Below are positions 1 to 7,643 of a DNA stretch of 7,774 bases, in pieces. The DNA is from an uncultured Actinomycetes bacterium (lineage in GTDB: Bacteria > Actinomycetota > Actinomycetes > Nanopelagicales > Nanopelagicaceae). Location of the stretch: contig CAINSH010000165.1 of assembly GCA_903852955.1 (NCBI GenBank), positions 1-7,774 on the forward strand. The letters are read 5' to 3'. Position 1 is the first letter of the stretch. Every line of letters starts with the position of its first letter. Both the position numbers and the translations under genes were made by a program. The notes under the pieces were generated by a model. It made no database searches and was not told the origin of the DNA. It worked only from the letters and a program-made list of their open reading frames with translations.

Positions 1-68
1 GCCATGTGCAACTTCTTGCCATGAACTTCACTTCGCCATGTGCAACTTCTTGCCATGAACTTCACTTC
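1..68. repeat. Tandem repeat, 34 bp x 2 (perfect)
   Basis: Two identical 34-bp copies, each starting gccatgtgcaacttcttgcc, lie at 1-34 and 35-68. The array may continue beyond the window edge. On the minus strand each unit looks internally doubled: two related 17-mers that both end in CATGGC. The unit length is not a multiple of three and the array lies downstream of smpB, so it is probably intergenic or at the start of the next gene. Confidence 0.9.
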
Positions 69-226
69 TCTACGGATAACGCTAATTAACCGAAGTTAAT
101 TCCAACGCTTCCCGTGTGCGAATCGTCGCTGAATCGCACCCAAAAATTGGGCGAACTAGGCGGCGGTGCGTTAAGTGTAAGACATAAAACTGACTAGCCA
201 TAATCCAAGAAATTAAAGCTGGGGCA
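69..226. other. Intergenic region downstream of smpB; small inverted repeats, no gene seen
   Basis: No credible coding sequence or tRNA is visible. A tmRNA gene often lies next to smpB, but I found neither its usual 5' end nor an Ala-Ala tag reading frame here. Three small dyads are visible: aattaac/gttaatt around CGAA (84-101), which as minus-strand RNA is a C(UUCG)G tetraloop hairpin; GTGCGA/TCGCAC (116-139, 12-nt loop); and CCCAA/TTGGG (139-151). None is followed by a T tract on the minus strand, so none is a canonical intrinsic terminator. Confidence 0.5.
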
Positions 227-742
227 CTACTCCTCGTAACGCTTAGAAGCGCGCCCACTTTTGCCGGATGAGCCTCGAGAAACCACGCGCGCTACTTCTC
301 GATCGGCCTCACGAGACTTAATTGCTTCACGCTTATCATGAGCTTTCTTTCCGCGAGCAACGGCAATCTCTACCTTGGCTTTGCCATCTTTGAAATAAAG
401 TGAAAGCGGAACCAACGTAGTGCCCGAATCTTTTAACTTACCAATGAGCTTATTGAGTTCATTTTTGTGAACAAGAAGTTTTCGGTCACGTCGTGGCGTG
501 TGATTAGTCCACGTTCCTTCAGTGTATTCAGGAATGTGAACACCACTGAGCCAGAGTTCGCCATCAGTGATCATGGCAAAACCATCGATTAGTGACGCTC
601 GACCGAGTCGTAGTGATTTAACTTCTGTGCCAGTCAAAACCATTCCGCACTCAAAGACGTCATCAATTGAATAATCATGACGAGCCTTTTTATTTTGGGC
701 GATGACTTTACGGCCAACTTCTTTAACCATAACCGCAATCAC
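227..742 (-). CDS. smpB: SsrA-binding protein SmpB
   Basis: SmpB binds tmRNA and brings it to stalled ribosomes for trans-translation, which releases the ribosome and tags the nascent peptide for degradation. The 171-residue product shows the family landmarks in order: QNKKARHDY (about 16-24), [13 protein letters not shown] (38-50), the HIPEYTEG turn (69-76), [10 protein letters not shown] (84-93), TLVPLSLYF (109-117) and the GKKAHDKRE stretch (131-139). It ends in the long basic tail that reaches into the empty mRNA channel. I chose the GTG start at 742 because AAGGA lies 6 nt upstream; the ATG at 730 would start four codons later with poorer spacing. It follows ftsX after a 222-nt gap, so it may have its own promoter, although I saw no convincing -35/-10 pair. 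The family assignment is secure; the exact start is less so. Confidence 0.96.
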
Positions 743-760
743 CGCCCTTCCTTATTTGAA

Positions 761-783
761 AGATTTTGGAAAACTCAAAATCT
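761..783 (-). promoter_or_regulatory. Perfect 8-bp inverted repeat just upstream of smpB
   Basis: AGATTTTG and CAAAATCT form a perfect 8-bp stem with a 7-nt loop, ending about 18 nt upstream of the chosen smpB start. In minus-strand RNA the hairpin is followed by only a short run of T. It could be a weak terminator between ftsX and smpB, an RNA fold affecting smpB translation, or chance in AT-rich sequence. Confidence 0.3.
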
Positions 784-932
784 CTGTGCGCTAATCGATT
801 ACAGGGGTAATTCTCTCACTAGTTACTCCGACTAAGTCACGAATGTGGACTTCTAACATGAAACCACGTTTGATTCGGCGCAAGTTTGGCAATAAAAAGA
901 CTCTGGAACCCGACCTCGTGTATTAGGTAGAG

Positions 933-982
933 GAGAGATTTAGACACTCAGGTAGCCGAGAGATTTAGACCTTTAAGTAGCG
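933..982. repeat. Imperfect tandem repeat, 25 bp x 2, spanning the ftsX stop codon
   Basis: The copies at 933-957 and 958-982 share gagagatttagac and then diverge slightly before ending gtagc. The right-hand copy holds the real ftsX C terminus (codons for YLKV and the TAA at 965-967). The left-hand copy repeats this out of use as YLSV-stop, and a fainter third echo follows at about 921-932. The unit is not a multiple of three, in keeping with its position across and beyond a stop codon. Confidence 0.75.
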
Positions 983-1867
983 GCGAAGCGTAATTACGGA
1001 CGCAACAGTGGATACGAGTAGGCCGGTAGCTAATAAATATGCTGATGAAACCCAAACTTCGCCCCAACCAAAGAACTTTGTAAAGGAAAGAAGTGGCGCA
1101 ACTTTTGAATCAATCACACTCTTTAATGCGGCCAGTAGTCCGGTGGCAAGAGCCCAACCCACGATTGCTGAAATAATTCCTTCAAGAAGGAACGGAAGCT
1201 GAATTGACCAAGAAGATGCGCCAACAAGTTTCATAACGCCAGTTTCACGGCGCCGATTAAATGCAGCAATTCGTAGAGTGTTACTAATAAGCAATGCAGC
1301 TGTGAGTACTGAGGCTAAACCAACAAGAAGTGCACCATTTCTCAGAACACCTAATAGCTTAAAGAATTTCTCCAAAATACTTCGTTGGTCTTGGACTACA
1401 TCAACTCCTGGGCGACCAGAAAACGCACTAACAATTACAGCAAACTGAGTTGGGTCCTTTAATTTCACTCGAAACGATTCTGGCAATTGATCAGCAGTCA
1501 CGTTTGCCGCAATTGCTGAATCCTTGAACCGTTCTTGGAAGCGTGCATAAGCCTGTGATTGTGATTCATAAAATACAGATTCCACAACTGACATATCCTG
1601 AAGATCCTGCTGAATTGATAGTCGTTGATCAGACGAAACTAGTCCGCCTGCACATGAAGGTGAATCCGAGAGTGAGCCACAGAGAAAGACTGAAACTTCA
1701 ATCTTGTCGTACCAATAATCTTTCATCGCACCGACCTGCGCATTTGAAAGCAGGCCGATACCAAGCAAGGACAGTGAGATTGCTGTTGTGACGATGACTG
1801 CAAATGTCATAGTCATGTTGCGTCGGAGACCGATACCAACTTCGCTTAAGAGAAACCGTGCGCGCAT
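965..1867 (-). CDS. ftsX: Cell division protein FtsX
   Basis: FtsX is the membrane subunit of FtsEX, which sits at the division septum and switches on peptidoglycan hydrolases through its extracellular loop when FtsE hydrolyses ATP. The 300-residue protein has the standard layout: cytoplasmic N terminus, first membrane segment (about 20-41), a large extracellular domain (about 45-165), then three membrane segments (about 178-200, 224-248, 272-296) and a short basic end. The cytoplasmic loop RRRETGVMKLVGAS (205-218) is typical of the family. Cys63 and Cys72 in the extracellular domain could form a disulfide, as I recall for actinobacterial FtsX. The ATG at 1867 is preceded by AGGGAG and lies 11 nt after the ftsE stop, so the two genes are surely co-transcribed. 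The stop codon lies in an imperfect 25-bp tandem duplication. Confidence 0.97.
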   Translation of the reverse strand: MRARFLLSEVGIGLRRNMTMTFAVIVTTAISLSLLGIGLLSNAQVGAMKDYWYDKIEVSVFLCGSLSDSPSCAGGLVSSDQRLSIQQDLQDMSVVESVFYESQSQAYARFQERFKDSAIAANVTADQLPESFRVKLKDPTQFAVIVSAFSGRPGVDVVQDQRSILEKFFKLLGVLRNGALLVGLASVLTAALLISNTLRIAAFNRRRETGVMKLVGASSWSIQLPFLLEGIISAIVGWALATGLLAALKSVIDSKVAPLLSFTKFFGWGEVWVSSAYLLATGLLVSTVASVITLRRYLKV

Positions 1868-1878
1868 TCTTACTCCCT

Positions 1879-2568
1879 CTAACCGGTGTACCCATAGACA
1901 CCACGAACTTGGTCGCGGATTACATGGCCTAAATCTAACTCGATAACGCGCTTTCGCATTTGATCCACAATTCCTGCATCGTGTGTTGCCATCAAGACCG
2001 TAGTTCCCTCTCGGTTAATCCGGTCAAGAAGTTTCATAATTCCAACTGAAGTTGCTGGGTCAAGGTTTCCTGTTGGTTCATCCGCAATCAAAATTGGCGG
2101 ACGGCTTACGTAAGCACGAGCAATAGCCACGCGCTGTTGTTCACCACCTGAAATCTCTGAAGGCAATCGATCGCCCTTATCTTCAAGCCCAACAAGTTCT
2201 AGCACTTCTGGAACTTCACGATTGATTTCTTTTTGTGAATGTCCAAGCACGTGGAGTGCAAAAGCAACATTTTCAGTAATAGTTTTATTTGGAAGTAAGC
2301 GGAAATCTTGGAAAACAGTTCCAACTTGACGGCGAAGTTCAGGAACTTTGTGTGCGGCAAGAGTTCCTAAATCTTTTCCGGCCACATGGATTACTCCAGT
2401 TGTCGGACGTTCTTCACGCAAAATTAGACGAAGAAAAGTAGATTTACCTGAACCAGAAAGTCCTACTAGGAAAACAAACTCCCCTTTTACGATTTCTAGA
2501 TTGACGGTATCAAGTGCCGGTCGATCTTGACCTGGGTAGATCTTTGTGACGTTCTCAAAGCGAATCAT
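1879..2568 (-). CDS. ftsE: Cell division ATP-binding protein FtsE
   Basis: FtsE is the cytoplasmic ATPase partner of FtsX; ATP hydrolysis is transmitted through FtsX to cell-wall hydrolases during division. The 229-residue product is full length for the family. Visible motifs are Walker [10 protein letters not shown] (36-44), Q-loop Gln87 in [12 protein letters not shown], the ABC signature [14 protein letters not shown] (139-152), Walker [13 protein letters not shown] (159-170) and the H-loop His196 in ATHD. Leu37 in Walker A replaces the Pro or Ala often seen there, without touching the catalytic Lys42. I took the ATG at 2568 because GGGAG lies just upstream and [13 protein letters not shown] matches the usual FtsE beginning. 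A 20-residue upstream extension to 2628 is open, but it has no ribosome-binding site and does not look like FtsE. The 267-nt gap after prfB contains a repeat array and a dyad. Confidence 0.97.
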
Positions 2569-2624
2569 GTAAATCTCCCATTGCATCTGCAAGTCGGATA
2601 TCGGGGAACCCGCTCTTGGCCTGC

Positions 2625-2658
2625 CCATAGTTTATGTAAAACAGCGCGAAAACTATGG
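2625..2658 (-). promoter_or_regulatory. Candidate ftsE promoter region with a 9-bp operator-like dyad
   Basis: ccatagttt (2625-2633) and aaactatgg (2650-2658) are perfect inverted repeats separated by 16 nt. Read on the minus strand, the downstream arm contains TAAACT, which fits the actinobacterial -10 pattern TAnnnT and lies about 60 nt before the ftsE start. No good -35 is seen at the matching distance. The dyad could be an operator around this promoter, a hairpin, or coincidence. Confidence 0.3.
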
Positions 2659-2714
2659 ATGCGAGGGGGACTTAAGCGTAAGAAAATCGTGAGATTGTTC
2701 GCAAATGCACCCTT

Positions 2715-2802
2715 TCGGTAATTATCTCCAGGCAAATCGGTAATTATCTCCAGGCAAATCGGTAATTATCTCCAGGCAAATCGGTAGATAGGTTCAAGAA
2801 AA
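2715..2802. repeat. Tandem repeat, 22 bp x 3 perfect plus one decayed copy, prfB-ftsE gap
   Basis: Perfect copies beginning tcggtaattatctccaggca lie at 2715-2736, 2737-2758 and 2759-2780. A decayed copy (tcggtagatagg...) follows at 2781-2802, and a fainter echo (ttggtaggtatttcc) after it, on the prfB side. The unit is not a multiple of three, which fits a non-coding location. No obvious dyad or promoter lies inside the unit. Confidence 0.92.
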
Positions 2803-2835
2803 TTGGTAGGTATTTCCGCGGACCATTACTGGAAA

Positions 2836-3936
2836 TTAGGAGCTTCGGCGCCAGCGGATTCCCGCTTCGATGAATTCATCGATTTCACCATTTAGAACTG
2901 CTGATGTATTTCCTGTTTCAAAATCAGTGCGCAAATCCTTAACCATTTGATACGGGGCTAAAACATACGAACGCATCTGATTTCCCCATGATCCAGAGTT
3001 GTCACCTTTAAGTGCGTTGATCTTTGCTTGTTCTTCTTGGCGTCGACGTTCAAGTAATTTTGATTGCAGTACTGCCATTGCGGTTGCTTTATTTTGAATT
3101 TGAGAGCGTTCATTTTGGCAAGAGACAACAATGCCTGTAGGTATGTGCGTTAAACGCACGGCGGAATCAGTTGTATTCACACCCTGCCCACCGGGACCTG
3201 ATGAACGATAAACATCCACTCGTACTTCTTTTTCATCAATTTCAACGTGATCGCTTTGATCAACGACCGGTACAACTTCAACACCTGCAAAAGATGTATG
3301 ACGGCGACTTTGACTATCAAATGGCGAAATTCTCACTAACCGATGTGTGCCTTGTTCTACAGACAAAGTGCCGTAGGCATAAGGAGCGGTTACTCGAAAA
3401 GTTGTTGATTTAATCCCAGCTTCTTCTGCATAAGAAGTTTCAAGTACGTCAACTTTGAAATTATGTCTTTCGCAGTAACGTAAATACATGCGCATAATCA
3501 TTTCGGCCCAGTCGGCCGCTTCAACCCCACCCGCTTCAGAGCGAATAGTTATGAGCGCATCACGATCATCATATTCACCGTTAAGAAGTGTTTGAACTTC
3601 TAGTTCACCAATTGATTTCTTAACAGCATCTAGTTCTTTTTCAGCATCGGCGATTCCTGATCCATCCGGTTCACTTGCCGCTAATTCAAAAAGAATTGGC
3701 AGATCTTCGACACGTTGACGCAGACTTGAGAGTTTTGCAATTTCGGATTGAACCCGTGAAAGCCGACTTGTTATCTTTTGCGCACTCTCCGGGTCGTCCC
3801 AAAGATTCGGAACCCCTGCCTCTTCCTCTAACTCTGCCGCTTGTTTACGCAGCTTAGGAAGATCTAAAACCTTCTCAATAGATACAAGGGTGGCATCAAC
3901 TTCGTTAATCTCTAATTGATATTCACGCGCCGCCAT
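2836..3936 (-). CDS. prfB: Peptide chain release factor 2 (RF2)
   Basis: RF2 recognises UGA and UAA in the ribosomal A site and triggers peptide release. The 366-residue protein has a helical N-terminal domain (about 1-110), the SPF anticodon-like tripeptide at 204-206 in [15 protein letters not shown], and the catalytic GGQ at 249-251 in [20 protein letters not shown] separates it from RF1, which has PxT. The frame is open from the ATG at 3936 with no in-frame UGA near codon 26, so the programmed +1 frameshift that autoregulates prfB in E. coli is absent. No Shine-Dalgarno precedes the ATG. Instead TATCCT ends 6 nt before it, as expected for a leaderless transcript. The gene starts 18 nt after the TadG-like gene and heads the conserved prfB-ftsE-ftsX-smpB order. 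Confidence 0.97.
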
Positions 3937-3942
3937 GAGGCA

Positions 3943-3948
3943 AGGATA
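3943..3948 (-). promoter_or_regulatory. Candidate -10 element for leaderless prfB transcription
   Basis: On the minus strand TATCCT (a TAnnnT -10) is followed by exactly six bases and then the prfB ATG. Transcription would therefore begin at or next to the A of the start codon, the leaderless geometry common in Actinobacteria. The absence of any Shine-Dalgarno supports this. The -35 region lies inside the end of the upstream gene and is unconvincing (GAATTC at 17-bp spacing). Confidence 0.4.
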
Positions 3949-3954
3949 GCCGAA

Positions 3955-4587
3955 TCAGTGAAGGCGAATTCCAAAGAGGTAGAAACCCTCTTGTACTTGA
4001 TTAGTGCTTGCCGCTGAAGAAGTAAGAAGCGCTGAATTCATTGAAGAAAATGGGAGTGTGAATGGAAAGATCACCTTGGCATTTGTAGAAATCGAAACAG
4101 ATGTGCCATCACATGAAAAATCAGTCAATGAAATCCTTTGTAGTTCGTGCCGCTTTAAAGCCGTGTCATCCTCACTCCAGTTCTGAAGTTCTAGAAGCAC
4201 ATCAAAACTAGCTTGCTGGCAATCGATTGGAATGGCCGGGTGGTCTCGCTTATTTAATAGAGCTAAAGGAGTAGTGAGCATTGATCCTTTGCCGGTGTAA
4301 TAAGAATCTCGATCTAAAGTATGTACTCCCCGCATCACAGCTGCCTCTGTTGCCTGAGCTAAAGAGCGCTTAGCCACCATTATGGCTGACACGTCAGTCA
4401 TTACCATTAGGGAAGCAACGGTAATAACGAAAAGAGCAATAATTACTACGCTCAATGATCCATCTTCTTCTCGGAAAGCTTGTAAACATTTTTTCTTAAA
4501 GATTCTTCGCATAACGCTTTCGCGATGACCGTTGATCATACTTATTTGGATGGGCTGAGTTATTTCCATGGGCTGAGTTATTTCCAT
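3955..4587 (-). CDS. TadG-like pilus assembly / secretion pseudopilin
   Basis: This is probably a minor pseudopilin of a Tad (Flp) system, anchored in the membrane with an exported C-terminal domain. Counted from the ATG at 4587 (210 residues) it has a basic leader ending REEDG (39-43), a hydrophobic segment (about 44-65), then MVAKRSLAQATEAAVMRG (70-87), which resembles the post-membrane helix of TadG-like proteins, and an exported domain with two cysteines (Cys123 in IPIDC, Cys159 in DFSC) that may pair. The start is uncertain. Codons 1-12 are the duplicated hexapeptide MEITQP, and methionines at 17 and 26 (MRRIFKKK) are alternatives that still precede the leader. The ATG at 4587 overlaps the upstream stop by 10 nt, which favours translational coupling. 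The gene closes the cassette and ends 18 nt before prfB. I recognise the family broadly but cannot give a proven function. Confidence 0.75.
   Translation of the reverse strand: MEITQPMEITQPIQISMINGHRESVMRRIFKKKCLQAFREEDGSLSVVIIALFVITVASLMVMTDVSAIMVAKRSLAQATEAAVMRGVHTLDRDSYYTGKGSMLTTPLALLNKRDHPAIPIDCQQASFDVLLELQNWSEDDTALKRHELQRISLTDFSCDGTSVSISTNAKVIFPFTLPFSSMNSALLTSSAASTNQVQEGFYLFGIRLH
4552..4587. repeat. In-frame tandem repeat, 18 bp x 2, at the TadE/TadG gene overlap
   Basis: Two perfect copies of gggctgagttatttccat lie at 4552-4569 and 4570-4587, with decayed echoes on both sides. On the minus strand each encodes MEITQP in the TadG-like frame, giving two stacked in-frame ATG codons. In the other frame the upstream copy contains the stop of the TadE-like gene. 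The unit is a multiple of three. Confidence 0.85.
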
Positions 4588-5198
4588 GGGCTTATATTTT
4601 CTTGCGCCGATGCCTGCACTCTTCGTTGAGTTTGTGAGTCGACATATGAAATTGTCAATCGAATTCGGCTATTTGCCGATAAACAAGGTAGGCGCGAACA
4701 TTCATACGTCGCTGAAAGAGTTTGTAACTCTTCTTCAGAAAGGCCAAGATGTTTAGCAATTAGCTGAACCGCCTGTTGTGAAACGACTCGTCCTGCATAG
4801 TCGTTATCGCTTGCGACATAGGCGCGCACGCCTTCACGTGCAAGAGTTCGAATCACGGCTTCGTTTCCACTTAATGAGGCAAAACTGTTGAGGTAAATAA
4901 AGATTGGTATAAAAAGTGGGATCGCCAGGGCGACGAACTCCACTACAGCGCTACCTGATTCATCGCGCAATGAGTTATGTGCCGGAAGGAGTAATCGTTT
5001 AGCGCAGGCAGTAAGAGATTTAACGCAAGCAGTAGGAGATTTAGCGCAGGCAGTAAGAGATTTAACGCAGGCAGTAAGAGATTTAATGCAGGCAGTAAGA
5101 AATTTGCTCAGAGCGGTAAAACAATCGAGGCAAAGGGTCTGCGTGTTAATCCAACCGCTATACAAGTTCCTTGCCAGCTTAAATTTGTGATGGTTCAT
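4578..5198 (-). CDS. TadE-like pseudopilin with a long cysteine-heptad leader
   Basis: The C-terminal 125 residues form a TadE-like pseudopilin. RDESG is followed by SAVVEF, the class III prepilin pattern with cleavage after Gly82 and Glu at +5 (Glu87). Then come a membrane segment (about 85-105), a helix with LAREGVRAYVAS, and an exported part with two cysteines (CSRLPC). TadE proteins are minor pilins needed for Tad pilus or related secretion. The leader is unusually long, about 82 residues, and contains five repeats of the form LTAC(V/A/I)KS (about 34-68), encoded by a 21-bp tandem array. The ATG at 5198 has AAGGGCG a few bases upstream and lies 21 nt after the previous stop. No ATG occurs between the repeats and the TadE domain, so the repeats are probably translated unless a GTG or TTG is used. 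Leader function is unknown and may be nil. Confidence 0.78.
   Translation of the reverse strand: MNHHKFKLARNLYSGWINTQTLCLDCFTALSKFLTACIKSLTACVKSLTACAKSPTACVKSLTACAKRLLLPAHNSLRDESGSAVVEFVALAIPLFIPIFIYLNSFASLSGNEAVIRTLAREGVRAYVASDNDYAGRVVSQQAVQLIAKHLGLSEEELQTLSATYECSRLPCLSANSRIRLTISYVDSQTQRRVQASAQENISPWK
5002..5106. repeat. In-frame tandem repeat, 21 bp x 5, in the TadE-like leader
   Basis: Five near-identical copies, typified by gcgcaggcagtaagagattt plus a, run from 5002 to 5106. Decayed copies are visible on both flanks (4981-5001 and 5107-5127). On the minus strand each encodes seven residues of the form LTACxKS. Differences between copies are single bases, several changing V, A or I and one L to P. 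The unit is a multiple of three, so copy number can change without breaking the frame. Confidence 0.93.
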
Positions 5199-5219
5199 AT
5201 ATCGCCCTTGAATTTCGCA

Positions 5220-5624
5220 CTAGTTCAAATTTTCCACAACGGCCGCCCCGTTTACTTCAACAATTGCTTTGCCGCCAAGTAGGGCTAACAGCCCAGGGAC
5301 TAGTTGAGGCAATGTGTCTTTGCGACGGGAGATTAAAACCTTCATGTGCGCAAAAGGGTCTGGTGAATCTAATTCGATAATCTGATCGGAACTTGCAAAC
5401 TGTCCACTAATTGCACGCACAGTTGCATCGGCCTGGGCCAAAGAAAGATCAGCATTTCGAAGATTAGTGGCGACGATTACTTCAATTGCCATCAGAAATA
5501 GAAGTAGTAAGGGAATTAGCACTAATGCACTCTCAACATTTCCATCTTCTTCCCGCAATCTCTTATTCATTGCGCCGTCCCGCAATCTCTTATTCATTGC
5601 GCCGTCCCGCAATCTCTTAATCAT
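5220..5624 (-). CDS. TadE-family-like pseudopilin (second, shorter)
   Basis: This short exported protein (134 residues) has a basic leader ending REEDG (24-28), followed by NVESALV and a hydrophobic segment (about 34-53). This resembles actinobacterial TadE-like pseudopilins, although the acidic residue is Glu at +3 rather than +5. The remainder (LRNADLSLAQADATVRAI onward) is small and lacks cysteines. An upstream extension in this frame reaches 5744 but overlaps the pilin gene completely, so I start at the ATG at 5624, only 2 nt after the pilin stop. Three in-frame ATGs at codons 1, 10 and 19 arise from a 27-bp repeat; the first or third could be used, and none has a strong ribosome-binding site. 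Translational coupling to the pilin gene is likely. The role is inferred from the leader and neighbours, not from a recognised domain. Confidence 0.72.
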   Translation of the reverse strand: MIKRLRDGAMNKRLRDGAMNKRLREEDGNVESALVLIPLLLLFLMAIEVIVATNLRNADLSLAQADATVRAISGQFASSDQIIELDSPDPFAHMKVLISRRKDTLPQLVPGLLALLGGKAIVEVNGAAVVENLN

Positions 5625-5626
5625 TG
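5552..5626. repeat. In-frame tandem repeat, 27 bp x 2.8, at the start of the second TadE-like gene
   Basis: Two perfect 27-bp copies (5552-5578, 5579-5605), each starting cccgcaatctcttattcatt, are followed by a partial copy with one mismatch (5606-5626). On the minus strand the unit encodes MNKRLRDGA, and the first copy reads MIKRLRDGA. The array stacks three in-frame start codons. The unit is a multiple of three. Confidence 0.93.
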
Positions 5627-5860
5627 TTAGCGAATGCCATTCATGGCATCTAGTGAGTTTTTCAAAATGGCAGTCAGACGTGGTGCGGCTATTGTCCAGA
5701 TCGCGGTTACAAGACCAGTAGTCATCAATACAACTAAAACCCAACCGGGAACGTCGCCTTGTTCATCGCTGAATTTTCCATGGAACTTCTTGGTTAGACC
5801 TGATAGTCCAGTTCGAAAACCGATCTCTGCCTTCACGTAGGTTTTGATTATCTGCTTCAT
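5627..5860 (-). CDS. Small pilin-like membrane protein (GDVPGWV type)
   Basis: This is a 77-residue protein with a basic N terminus (about 1-30), the motif SDEQG (31-35), then GDVPGWVLVVLMTTGLVTAIW, a single membrane segment (about 38-58), and a short C-terminal helix. I know this GDVPGWV family from actinobacterial Tad-type loci next to TadE-like genes, so it is probably the major pilin or a structural pseudopilin, processed after Gly35 by analogy. It lacks the Glu at +5 of classical Flp pilins (Trp is there), so cleavage is not certain. The start is strongly supported: AAAGGAGA lies 5 nt upstream of the ATG at 5860. It heads the cassette and its stop is 2 nt before the next gene. High expression relative to the others would fit a major pilin and the strong ribosome-binding site, but this is inference. 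Confidence 0.75.
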   Translation of the reverse strand: MKQIIKTYVKAEIGFRTGLSGLTKKFHGKFSDEQGDVPGWVLVVLMTTGLVTAIWTIAAPRLTAILKNSLDAMNGIR

Positions 5861-5878
5861 TACTTCTCCTTTTTCTAA

Positions 5879-5924
5879 TTGATTCTTAGGTTTAGTTCTA
5901 TTTGATTCTTAGGTTTAGTTCTAT
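5879..5924. repeat. Tandem repeat, 23 bp x 2 (perfect) plus decayed copy, upstream of the pilin gene
   Basis: Perfect copies beginning ttgattcttaggtttagttc lie at 5879-5901 and 5902-5924, with a decayed third copy (ttgactttgagattttt...) up to about 5948. The array ends about 8 nt before the pilin ribosome-binding site, so it would lie in the 5' leader or promoter of the pilin cassette. The unit is not a multiple of three. Confidence 0.9.
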
Positions 5925-6026
5925 TTGACTTTGAGATTTTTAATGTATCCGGTGATTATTGATTTCAATTCTGCTTCTATCTTGATTAAATAAAGATCCC
6001 GAAAATTTTTTTGTGCATATCTGTGT

Positions 6027-7319
6027 TTAATTGTTTTGATCACTTGCCGGCCAGAGGCATTCGCAATCTGGGTGTTGTGGAAATCTTCGAAGTTGTGGTT
6101 TAAAAGCATCAAGAAAATCCACAGTCACTTGTGCGGCAAGTAGGTCACTCTCTCCGGTGTCTATAAATTTCAAAGCTGCATGGGCCGCCAAAGCAGCTAC
6201 CTGGTGTGCAATGGCAATTGGAAGTTCATCACTAGTTCCTGGGGCGATAGTTAAATCATTTCCGCCAACTTGTGCGGCCTCAAGCAGATAAAGACATTTA
6301 CTACAGGGCGTATTGCCTGGTTGGACAAAAGGGCCAATGGTTGCTGAGTGACCTGGTGCTCGGTTTACGAAGAAGTGATCATGCCCATCTTTAAGCAAGT
6401 GTTCGACATATTGTGAATCGAAAATTCCACAAATAATGCGGAGGTTCTTCTCCGGGATCATTGGTTTTTTTGCCCCACGTTGCGCAAGTGCATAAGTCGA
6501 AGCAACTGGAAAAAGTGACCACTCACGAGAAAGTTCCTCGAGACGATTCTTAAAATTAAGCCCTAGATCACTTGTTCGTAGAGAACCTGTGCCAAGATCG
6601 CCATCCACAACCGTTGGGTGCTTGTAAGAAGCAGATAATGAAAGCCTGGTATTGGTTACACCGCTTGCAAGTAAAATTGAATACAACAAAGTTGCAGTCC
6701 TAGAATTTCCGATAATTTCTACGCCAAAATTCTGTCGAGCTGTCATAACTGCAACACCTCCATCACACACGCCGTCAATCCATGTGGCTTGGCTTAATTC
6801 AGGCGCGAGTCTTTTTTGGAGCTGACTAAAAGCGGCGTCATTGCTTTGATCGCTTGTGTGTGCTGCCCTTGCCGCAATTGTTGATTGAAAACGATTGTTG
6901 AGTTTGATTGAATTTCGCTGAGTATCAATGAAATTCACATTACGCAGTTGTCTAATAATAGTTTCGATAACCGATGATGAAACTTCAATCTTGTTTGATA
7001 TCTCTTGGACACTTAGCACTCCGCTGAATTGATCAATGATTTCTCTAGCTTTCAGATGAGAAATTGTGATTCCATGAAATGAAGTCGCAATAATTACCGA
7101 TTTTTCACCGCTTGATTCGACCGAGCTGACGTAAACACCATTTTTTAATCGAGGAAAAATCATTTCATCAATCTGTAAATCGTTGTTGGAATCGATGTTG
7201 AGTTTTAAATCGTTGTTGGAATCGATGTTGAGTTTTAAATCGTTGTTGGAATCGATGTTGAGTTTTAAATCGTTGTGGGAATCGATGTTGGGCGAATTTG
7301 GGCTTGTATTTATTTTCAT
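6027..7319 (-). CDS. ThiF/E1-like protein, cyclodehydratase or leader-peptide-binding type
   Basis: This 430-residue protein resembles the E1/ThiF-like partners of YcaO enzymes (the 'bacteriocin biosynthesis cyclodehydratase' family), which bind precursor peptides. Residues about 53-135 (from MIFPRLKNGVYV) look like the N-terminal winged-helix peptide-recognition part. Residues about 198-300 form the Rossmann-like part. CSKC (339-342) and CEC in HPDCECLW (416-423) are the likely zinc cysteines. The glycine-rich ATP loop is degenerate (IIGNSRTAT, 203-210), so adenylation activity is doubtful. Actinobacteria carry similar orphan copies whose role is unknown to me. Residues 11-50 are four copies of NIDSNNDLKL, absent from the family as I know it. 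I chose the ATG at 7319 because AGGTGA lies 10 nt upstream; a TTG at 7343 would add eight residues. The gene follows a terminator, so it needs its own promoter. No YcaO or precursor gene is in the window. Confidence 0.72.
   Translation of the reverse strand: MKINTSPNSPNIDSHNDLKLNIDSNNDLKLNIDSNNDLKLNIDSNNDLQIDEMIFPRLKNGVYVSSVESSGEKSVIIATSFHGITISHLKAREIIDQFSGVLSVQEISNKIEVSSSVIETIIRQLRNVNFIDTQRNSIKLNNRFQSTIAARAAHTSDQSNDAAFSQLQKRLAPELSQATWIDGVCDGGVAVMTARQNFGVEIIGNSRTATLLYSILLASGVTNTRLSLSASYKHPTVVDGDLGTGSLRTSDLGLNFKNRLEELSREWSLFPVASTYALAQRGAKKPMIPEKNLRIICGIFDSQYVEHLLKDGHDHFFVNRAPGHSATIGPFVQPGNTPCSKCLYLLEAAQVGGNDLTIAPGTSDELPIAIAHQVAALAAHAALKFIDTGESDLLAAQVTVDFLDAFKPQLRRFPQHPDCECLWPASDQNN
7171..7290. 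repeat. In-frame tandem repeat, 30 bp x 4, at the N terminus of the ThiF-like gene
   Basis: Four copies lie at 7171-7200, 7201-7230, 7231-7260 and 7261-7290. The two middle copies are identical, while the outer ones carry a few substitutions (QI for KL, His for Asn). On the minus strand the unit encodes NIDSNNDLKL, a polar, Asn- and Asp-rich decapeptide immediately before the conserved domain. The unit is a multiple of three. Confidence 0.95.
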
Positions 7320-7643
7320 GGCTGCAGATTCACCTATAGCCAACGCAAGCTCGGCACGGGACAGTTTCTCTGTGGAATCAGTACTAATAAAATTACGCCT
7401 TGTAATGATTTGTACGGCTGGAGAGAAAATGCCCAGATGAGGGTTCTTCCTTTGCAGATTTTCGCCCTAAACCATCTACGGACCTCAAGATTGCTCTTAC
7501 TTATTTCGCACAAGGAAAAACCCCCAGCTCCATAATGGAACTGGGGGTTTTAACGCTAGACGTTTATATTCCTTTAAATCTCACTCCTGCCAGATCTCGG
7601 CAAAGAAATCTCGAAGGCTAAATTAAAGTTAAACGAAATTTAA
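7320..7643. other. Intergenic region between the DUF5679 and ThiF-like genes
   Basis: It contains the terminator at 7517-7551 and the AGGTGA ribosome-binding site of the ThiF-like gene (7330-7335). The minus-strand frame of the ThiF-like gene stays open for roughly 110 bases upstream of its ATG, but offers no good start. No convincing promoter, tRNA or further gene was found. Confidence 0.5.
7517..7551 (-). terminator. Rho-independent terminator after the DUF5679 gene
   Basis: AAAACCCCCAG (7517-7527) and CTGGGGGTTTT (7541-7551) pair perfectly over 11 bp, and the stem continues past one mismatch with TCCA/TGGA around a 3-nt loop. Read on the minus strand it ends in TTTTT, correct for transcription coming from the DUF5679 gene. 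The plus-strand side ends in TTTT, so it may also work in both directions. Confidence 0.92.

Follow-up and report, generated by a model that had tools for sequence, protein, structure and literature searches.

Bacterial variable-number tandem repeat (VNTR) or minisatellite loci, the basis of multiple-locus VNTR analysis (MLVA) typing, consist of short units that vary in copy number from strain to strain and are either intergenic or in frame within genes. The mycobacterial interspersed repetitive units (MIRUs) of Mycobacterium, which form one sequence family, are located at gene junctions and contact start and stop codons. A third system, the tandem repeats of Borgs, is described by Schoelmerich et al. 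(2023; PMC9879509) as scattered over the whole of a linear extrachromosomal element and rare in host genomes; the unit sequences are virtually all unique, unit lengths are divisible by three inside open reading frames (ORFs) and mostly not so between genes, copy number varies within populations, and the repeats are seldom conserved between close relatives. The same study reports an enrichment in A and one conserved hotspot region. Here we analyse a 7,774-nucleotide stretch (hereafter, the window) of an uncultured bacterium of the Nanopelagicaceae (contig CAINSH010000165.1 of assembly GCA_903852955.1), in which short tandem arrays accompany the housekeeping genes smpB, ftsX, ftsE and prfB, four small genes of the tight adherence (Tad) type and a thiF-like gene. 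On balance, we favour the reading that locus-specific duplication, filtered by selection, is ongoing in this freshwater actinobacterial chromosomal stretch.

The window is one contig of a 1.36-Mb assembly in 253 contigs, estimated to be 79.9% complete, and matches the genome of a sister lineage (G017, locus L024) at 96%. All genes of the arrayed stretch lie on the minus strand, and the arrays are described on that strand as well. With Tandem Repeats Finder (TRF), used for array detection, all eight arrays listed by a first-pass annotation of the window were recovered, with slightly shifted ends. Two perfect copies of a 34-bp unit (1–68) are found 3′ of smpB, where relatives have the transfer-messenger RNA (tmRNA) gene, and are cut by the contig end; the sister has three copies. 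A 25-bp array (933–981; 2.0 copies, 83% match) spans the ftsX stop codon, one copy being the 3′ end of ftsX and the second lying past the stop, and is present in the sister too. The spacer between prfB and ftsE holds three perfect copies of a 22-bp unit (3.3 copies at 2715–2786), followed by a decayed copy to 2802. An in-frame 18-bp array (4542–4592; 2.8 copies) repeats the codon at which the Tad-type gene at 3955–4587 starts (MEITQP MEITQP), and a 21-bp array (4998–5105; 5.1 copies) lies in an open frame upstream of, or as a leader in, the Tad-type gene at 4578–5198, whose start codon was assigned tentatively. The Tad-type gene at 5627–5860 is flanked on both sides: directly after its stop lies a 27-bp array (5551–5626; 2.8 copies) that repeats the beginning (MNKRLRDGA) of the gene that follows, and 13 bp upstream of its start ends a 23-bp array (5873–5928; 2.4 copies). 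Finally, four in-frame copies of a 30-bp unit (7171–7290; by TRF 7176–7290, 3.8 copies) are located in the N-terminal part of the thiF-like gene.

Eight arrays compare with a mean of 0.028 and a maximum of 2 in 500 windows simulated under a first-order Markov model with equal composition. Their distances to the nearest gene boundary, read 5′ to 3′ along the window, are 159, 0, 50, 0, 22, 0, 13 and 26 bp (permutation P 0.004), and none of the eight falls within a gene body with a 60-bp margin (4.6 expected, P 0.0013); both tests depend on the chosen gene ends, as the start of gene 4578–5198 was set 3′ of its array and the 30-bp unit is repeated within the thiF-like ORF, close to its start. By the ORF rule alone, three of the eight lie inside an ORF, near its start. 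The placement of arrays at nearly all gene junctions, as first annotated, thus holds to within 159 bp of a gene end, given these starts, and TRF confirmed that the bodies of prfB, ftsE, ftsX and smpB in the window are free of arrays. The units were also correctly described as unrelated, no 12-mer being common to any two window arrays. The copies are arranged head-to-tail with units within the approximately 10–60 bp typical of VNTRs and minisatellites, and they abut without the unique spacers of a CRISPR (clustered regularly interspaced short palindromic repeats) array. Promoter-like sites (8 versus 11.5) and terminator-like sites (6 versus 8.3) are scarcer than in shuffled sequence. RNA hairpins were considered as well and rejected: six of the eight arrays fold as RNA like their shuffles; those at 1–68 and 5551–5626 fold better (z of −3.0 and −3.3).

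Such density had been taken to suggest a genome-wide tandem-duplication process, a proposal that was not borne out in the sampled part of the genome. Of 40 contigs taken from the 253, 25 were readable (166,943 bases, approximately 12% of the rest of the genome), and these carried 8 arrays, or 0.48 per 10 kb as against 10.3 in the window (Poisson P 7e-9); none of the 8 was outside ORFs (one under another ORF rule). Three of them were found on a single contig (C45), which maps approximately 6–18 kb past the smpB side of the locus in genome G015. A far sample was drawn from 15 genomes, namely 14 that stand behind prfB loci described below and G015; its 57 readable stretches, of 59 listed, contained 43 arrays in 1.02 Mb, 12 of them outside ORFs. 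This sample omits the prfB-contig stretches of G067 and G074 (L178, L180 and L184–L191), the near stretches of G076 and G015 (L192–L197 and L169–L172) and L223 (four arrays, none of them non-ORF), while L224–L243, except L243 (G060), entered a position profile only. Sampled far regions were array-poor also in other species with a rich prfB locus, and six homologous loci taken from other places in three genomes (82 kb) were without arrays. In the complete genome of IMCC26077, 600 of 1,552 kb (30 stretches) held 35 arrays, 8 of them non-ORF; four of these 8 were within 7 kb of prfB. Far regions of this genome had 2 non-ORF arrays in 460 kb. Arrays do exist elsewhere, mostly in ORFs and with periods divisible by three (37 of 39), but with non-ORF arrays this scarce in the sampled part, a process acting on the whole genome is highly improbable. 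On that part, the scan for an isolated case, named at first annotation as a refuting test, came out against a genome-wide process; the place that is isolated in this genome nevertheless recurs in relatives.

A scan of GTDB contigs for prfB yielded 80 loci, of which 78 (L025–L102, 728 kb) form the main count; a Streptomyces locus (L103; 74% GC, 9 arrays in 13 kb) was kept outside the locus counts. Five of the metagenome-assembled genome (MAG) records (L047, L048, L053, L060 and L065) carry the titles Bifidobacterium breve or Streptomyces griseus, yet their prfB is 86–91% identical to the acI sequence of the window and adjoined by ftsE and ftsX; these names look wrong.

The 78 loci carried 107 arrays, 77 of them outside ORFs, and 35 loci had at least one non-ORF array. 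Per ORF, this amounts to 77 in 792 at the locus versus 12 in 1107 elsewhere, own contigs included (ORF rules varied among counts, which slightly shifts the non-ORF totals). Fisher's test of locus against elsewhere gave P 1.8e-19 for 76 of the 78 loci, with the sister L024 as well as L047 and L101, both without arrays, left out; the 78-locus count restores the latter two. The difference is seen in the nearer clade alone (39 per 500 versus 5 per 564) and in the farther clade alone (38 per 292 versus 7 per 543). Non-ORF density was higher at the locus than far from it in 12 of 14 relatives, the exceptions (G060 and G068) both being array-free at the locus. In nine genomes with long contigs, the 180 kb lying no more than 10 kb from the start of prfB contained 18 non-ORF arrays, versus 13 in approximately 547 kb beyond. 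Six junctions, each taken with 60 bp of either gene end (L024–L102 without L101), contained 39 arrays in 110 kb, tadB–tadA being the richest (9 in 8.6 kb), with 4, 8 and 7 arrays at ftsE–ftsX, prfB–ftsE and ftsX–smpB, respectively. The trimmed bodies of prfB, ftsE, ftsX and smpB (78, 75, 70 and 64 loci) had 2 arrays in 194 kb.

These counts bear on the main rival explanation, namely that duplications are born at a uniform rate everywhere and are retained at this locus, either since the length of spacers and leaders is weakly constrained there or since variable spacers tune the expression of Tad-type genes in a contingency-like manner. The locus does have more gaps of at least 80 bp per ORF (297 per 792 versus 216 per 1107), and tadB–tadA is the junction richest in arrays. 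However, the enrichment remains when counted per gap of at least 80 bp, 50 of 297 such gaps carrying an array at the locus and 8 of 216 elsewhere; as mean gap lengths are similar (291 and 263 bp), gap length does not explain it. Tuning of Tad-type genes is, furthermore, at odds with the arrays at ftsE–ftsX, prfB–ftsE and ftsX–smpB, away from such genes, and contingency-like switching with the in-frame units, which are unable to turn a frame on or off. We regard retention as a doubtful account of the locus, albeit one with a further point in its favour, given with the leader arrays below.

Locus-specific duplication filtered by selection, the reading we favour, accords with the relation of the units to the reading frame. 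At the prfB locus the period was a multiple of three in 29 of 30 arrays inside ORFs and in 27 of 77 outside; elsewhere in 37 of 39 and 4 of 12; and in the window in 3 of 3 and 1 of 5. Such a pattern is expected of duplication that ignores the reading frame and is then filtered by selection. The units are also independent of one another: among 115 arrays, only 4 pairs shared a 12-mer, two of these at the same conserved gene ends. A single dispersed repeat family, such as MIRUs, repetitive extragenic palindromic (REP) sequences or CRISPR-like elements, would place one sequence family at many sites, and the location of the arrays at gene junctions is indeed MIRU-like. Yet one such family was not found in the 115 arrays, some units are plainly copies of local sequence, and six of the eight window arrays lack unusual RNA folding; we therefore consider a dispersed family extremely unlikely. 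The coding strand of 33 arrays had A and T fractions of 0.322 and 0.210, compared with 0.281 and 0.272 in a general non-ORF background that was not matched for start-proximal position.

The origin of individual arrays can be followed in close relatives. The 22-bp unit, with its three perfect copies and one decayed copy in the window, is present as a single copy in the sister, with TCG on both flanks. Among 12 compared pairs of loci, a homologous site with a single copy of the unit was identified in 4. Where L051 has 2.3 copies of a 42-bp unit, L056 has one stretch of approximately 15 bp of that unit; L065 repeats the 16 bases spanning the ftsE stop, which occur singly in L072; and two copies of a 30-bp unit in L058 are matched by one diverged copy in L061. 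The protein P0001 is identical to the thiF-like protein of the window in 370 of 376 body residues and lacks its four-copy 10-residue array, in place of which a short repeat (NNDLQLNNDLQ), apparently a related one, is present. We also considered whether the N-terminus of thiF-like proteins is a recurrent array site; this was rejected, as arrays were flagged in 7 of the 102 listed homologues with an anchor motif (the other 18 of the 120 lacked the motif and went unscored).

Copy-number polymorphism is most evident in the Tad-type leaders. Of the 120 listed homologues (756 found) of the protein encoded at 3955–4587, a tandem repeat precedes the conserved core in 28, and the bodies are free of them. 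In a relative whose proteins are approximately 57–68% identical to it, an 8-residue (24-bp) leader unit is present in 2, 3, 4 and 5 copies in 7, 13, 3 and 3 of 26 protein clusters, respectively. The bodies of these clusters are 97.7–100% identical, and some pairs that differ in copy number are identical over 176 body residues, a pattern that also suits retention or tuning. The repeats precede a hydrophobic core and thus, from this motif, presumably lie in the cleaved leader of pseudopilin-type proteins; such a position would explain why they are tolerated. Copy number therefore differs between close relatives, as in VNTRs, both for the 22-bp unit (three copies versus one) and for the 24-bp unit (two to five). 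Taken together, the single-copy sister site, the shorter or single-copy homologous sites and the polymorphism in the relative fit the cycles of duplication and drift that had been proposed for the window.

An assembly or amplification artefact was the other origin put forward at first. It could draw on the fragmentation of the assembly and the position of the 34-bp array at a contig end, on the sequencing of IMCC26077 after multiple displacement amplification (MDA) with short 2 × 300 reads, as stated in its description (PMC5301498), and on the fact that the array-bearing loci are not known to rest on long reads. However, the 25-bp and 34-bp arrays are common to the window and the sister, the copy classes of the 24-bp leader array recur in several sources and contigs, and artefacts would ignore the reading frame. 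As assemblies of independent species, including the complete IMCC26077, carry arrays with different units at the same locus, we find an artefact very unlikely. That the contig was misbinned was likewise rejected: three of five other contigs of the assembly match the sister genome at 96–97% and one at 91% over 3.3 kb, the fifth having no match in that genome, which is 62% complete.

We infer the following course of events for locus-specific duplication. A first duplication would arise through short flanking identities, such as the TCG flanks of the 22-bp unit in the sister, and would be expanded by recurrent replication slippage on local sequence. Purifying selection would clear arrays from gene bodies, and arrays would likely be kept only where tolerated, the coding survivors lying in probably dispensable ends, namely what are probably leader peptides in the Tad-type proteins and, in the thiF-like protein, the N-terminus. 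The average number of non-ORF arrays per gene is approximately nine times higher at the stretch than in the sampled rest of the genomes. The cause of this enrichment may act in cis. We tentatively propose a duplication hotspot fixed to the prfB–ftsEX–smpB–ssrA/Tad neighbourhood that has endured while the Nanopelagicales diversified; with similar reserve, successive lineages could be seen as adding new minisatellites, unrelated in sequence, to these same junctions, although the genome is otherwise streamlined.

Several observations weigh against ongoing duplication specific to this locus. As many as 43 of the 78 loci are devoid of non-ORF arrays, and among five complete genomes four (G014, G015, G068 and IMCC26103, i.e. 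L063) have none at the locus, IMCC26077 being the only one that does. In 8 of the 12 compared pairs there was no clear single copy of the unit at the homologous site; a local-duplication origin is thus read directly in only a few cases. Substitution is not raised at the locus (97.0–98.2% identity in two pieces, compared with 91–97% on four other contigs), contrary to what general hypermutability would predict. At 20–35 kb upstream of prfB, non-ORF arrays become more frequent a second time (8 in 118 kb), and the hot region therefore appears broad and not sharply bounded. It should be noted that the far-sample genomes were picked partly for their rich loci, a choice of which the 78-locus figure is independent, and that prfB was the only conserved locus sampled over all 78.

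Two other candidate causes were considered. Proximity to the replication terminus is unsupported, the locus being approximately 250–280 kb from dnaA in G015, G068 and G076 and approximately 175 kb in G014. In the latter, a complete genome, the locus (at approximately 1154 kb on C1) and dnaA are in the opposite order to that in G015, with the strand unchanged; the orientation of the locus to replication may therefore differ. NucS_C (PF01939) had no match in 17 of 20 genomes (G000 and 19 relatives) and was above cut-off in 2, and non-canonical mismatch repair by NucS looks mostly absent in the group. Its loss was rejected as the cause, since the absence is common to array-rich and array-poor species.

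As to the genes themselves, smpB (227–742, minus strand as all that follow; PF01668), ftsX (965–1867; PF18075 and PF02687) and the release factor 2 gene prfB (2836–3936; PF03462 and PF00472) were assigned by domain matches, while ftsE (1879–2568; PF00005, ABC_tran) owes its name to its position beside ftsX, with a chosen start in an ORF that reaches 2628. The four small genes at 3955–5860 had no Pfam or NCBIfam match, and their putative Tad-type, pseudopilin-like role was inferred; T2SSE and T2SSF genes lie upstream in IMCC26077, and PF13400 was detected in 2 of the 120 listed homologues of 3955–4587. The thiF-like gene (6027–7343) matched TIGR03882 at 27.6 bits, below the cut-off of 36.9. Its product, with 456 matches in the protein search, thus has only this weak similarity to leader-binding proteins of thiazole/oxazole-modified microcins (TOMM), and no relative was found in a PDB search. 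Between it and a DUF5679 gene, an inverted repeat ending in Ts (7517–7551; 91% self-match on the other strand) is probably an intrinsic terminator, although the terminator scan did not list it.

The arrays share features with each of the described systems. Spare DNA would be expected to disappear from streamlined genomes, yet this housekeeping region gains it time and again; among the open-access papers listed in our searches, none reported a region that gives rise to one unrelated array after another throughout a bacterial order. If the cause does act in cis, the locus would offer a natural system for studying why some parts of a bacterial chromosome duplicate more often than others and how repeats of the Borg kind arise. 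In practice, strains of abundant freshwater bacteria could be told apart by these arrays. With MIRUs they share the junction position and the contact with start and stop codons, but differ in having unrelated units. They resemble VNTR loci in their short units, in copy-number variation between close relatives and in being intergenic or in frame, but here one region has repeatedly yielded unrelated arrays across an order. The likeness to Borg repeats comprises region-unique units, the frame rule, copy-number variation, rare conservation between close relatives and a hotspot. Any A-enrichment would be milder (32% versus 28% in the background), and the arrays are concentrated in one chromosomal region among housekeeping genes, the sampled rest being poor in them. 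As Borg repeats cover whole linear elements outside the chromosome and are seldom met with in host genomes, we do not claim Borg membership for these arrays, which resemble Borg repeats in behaviour but are confined to a local stretch of an actinobacterial chromosome.

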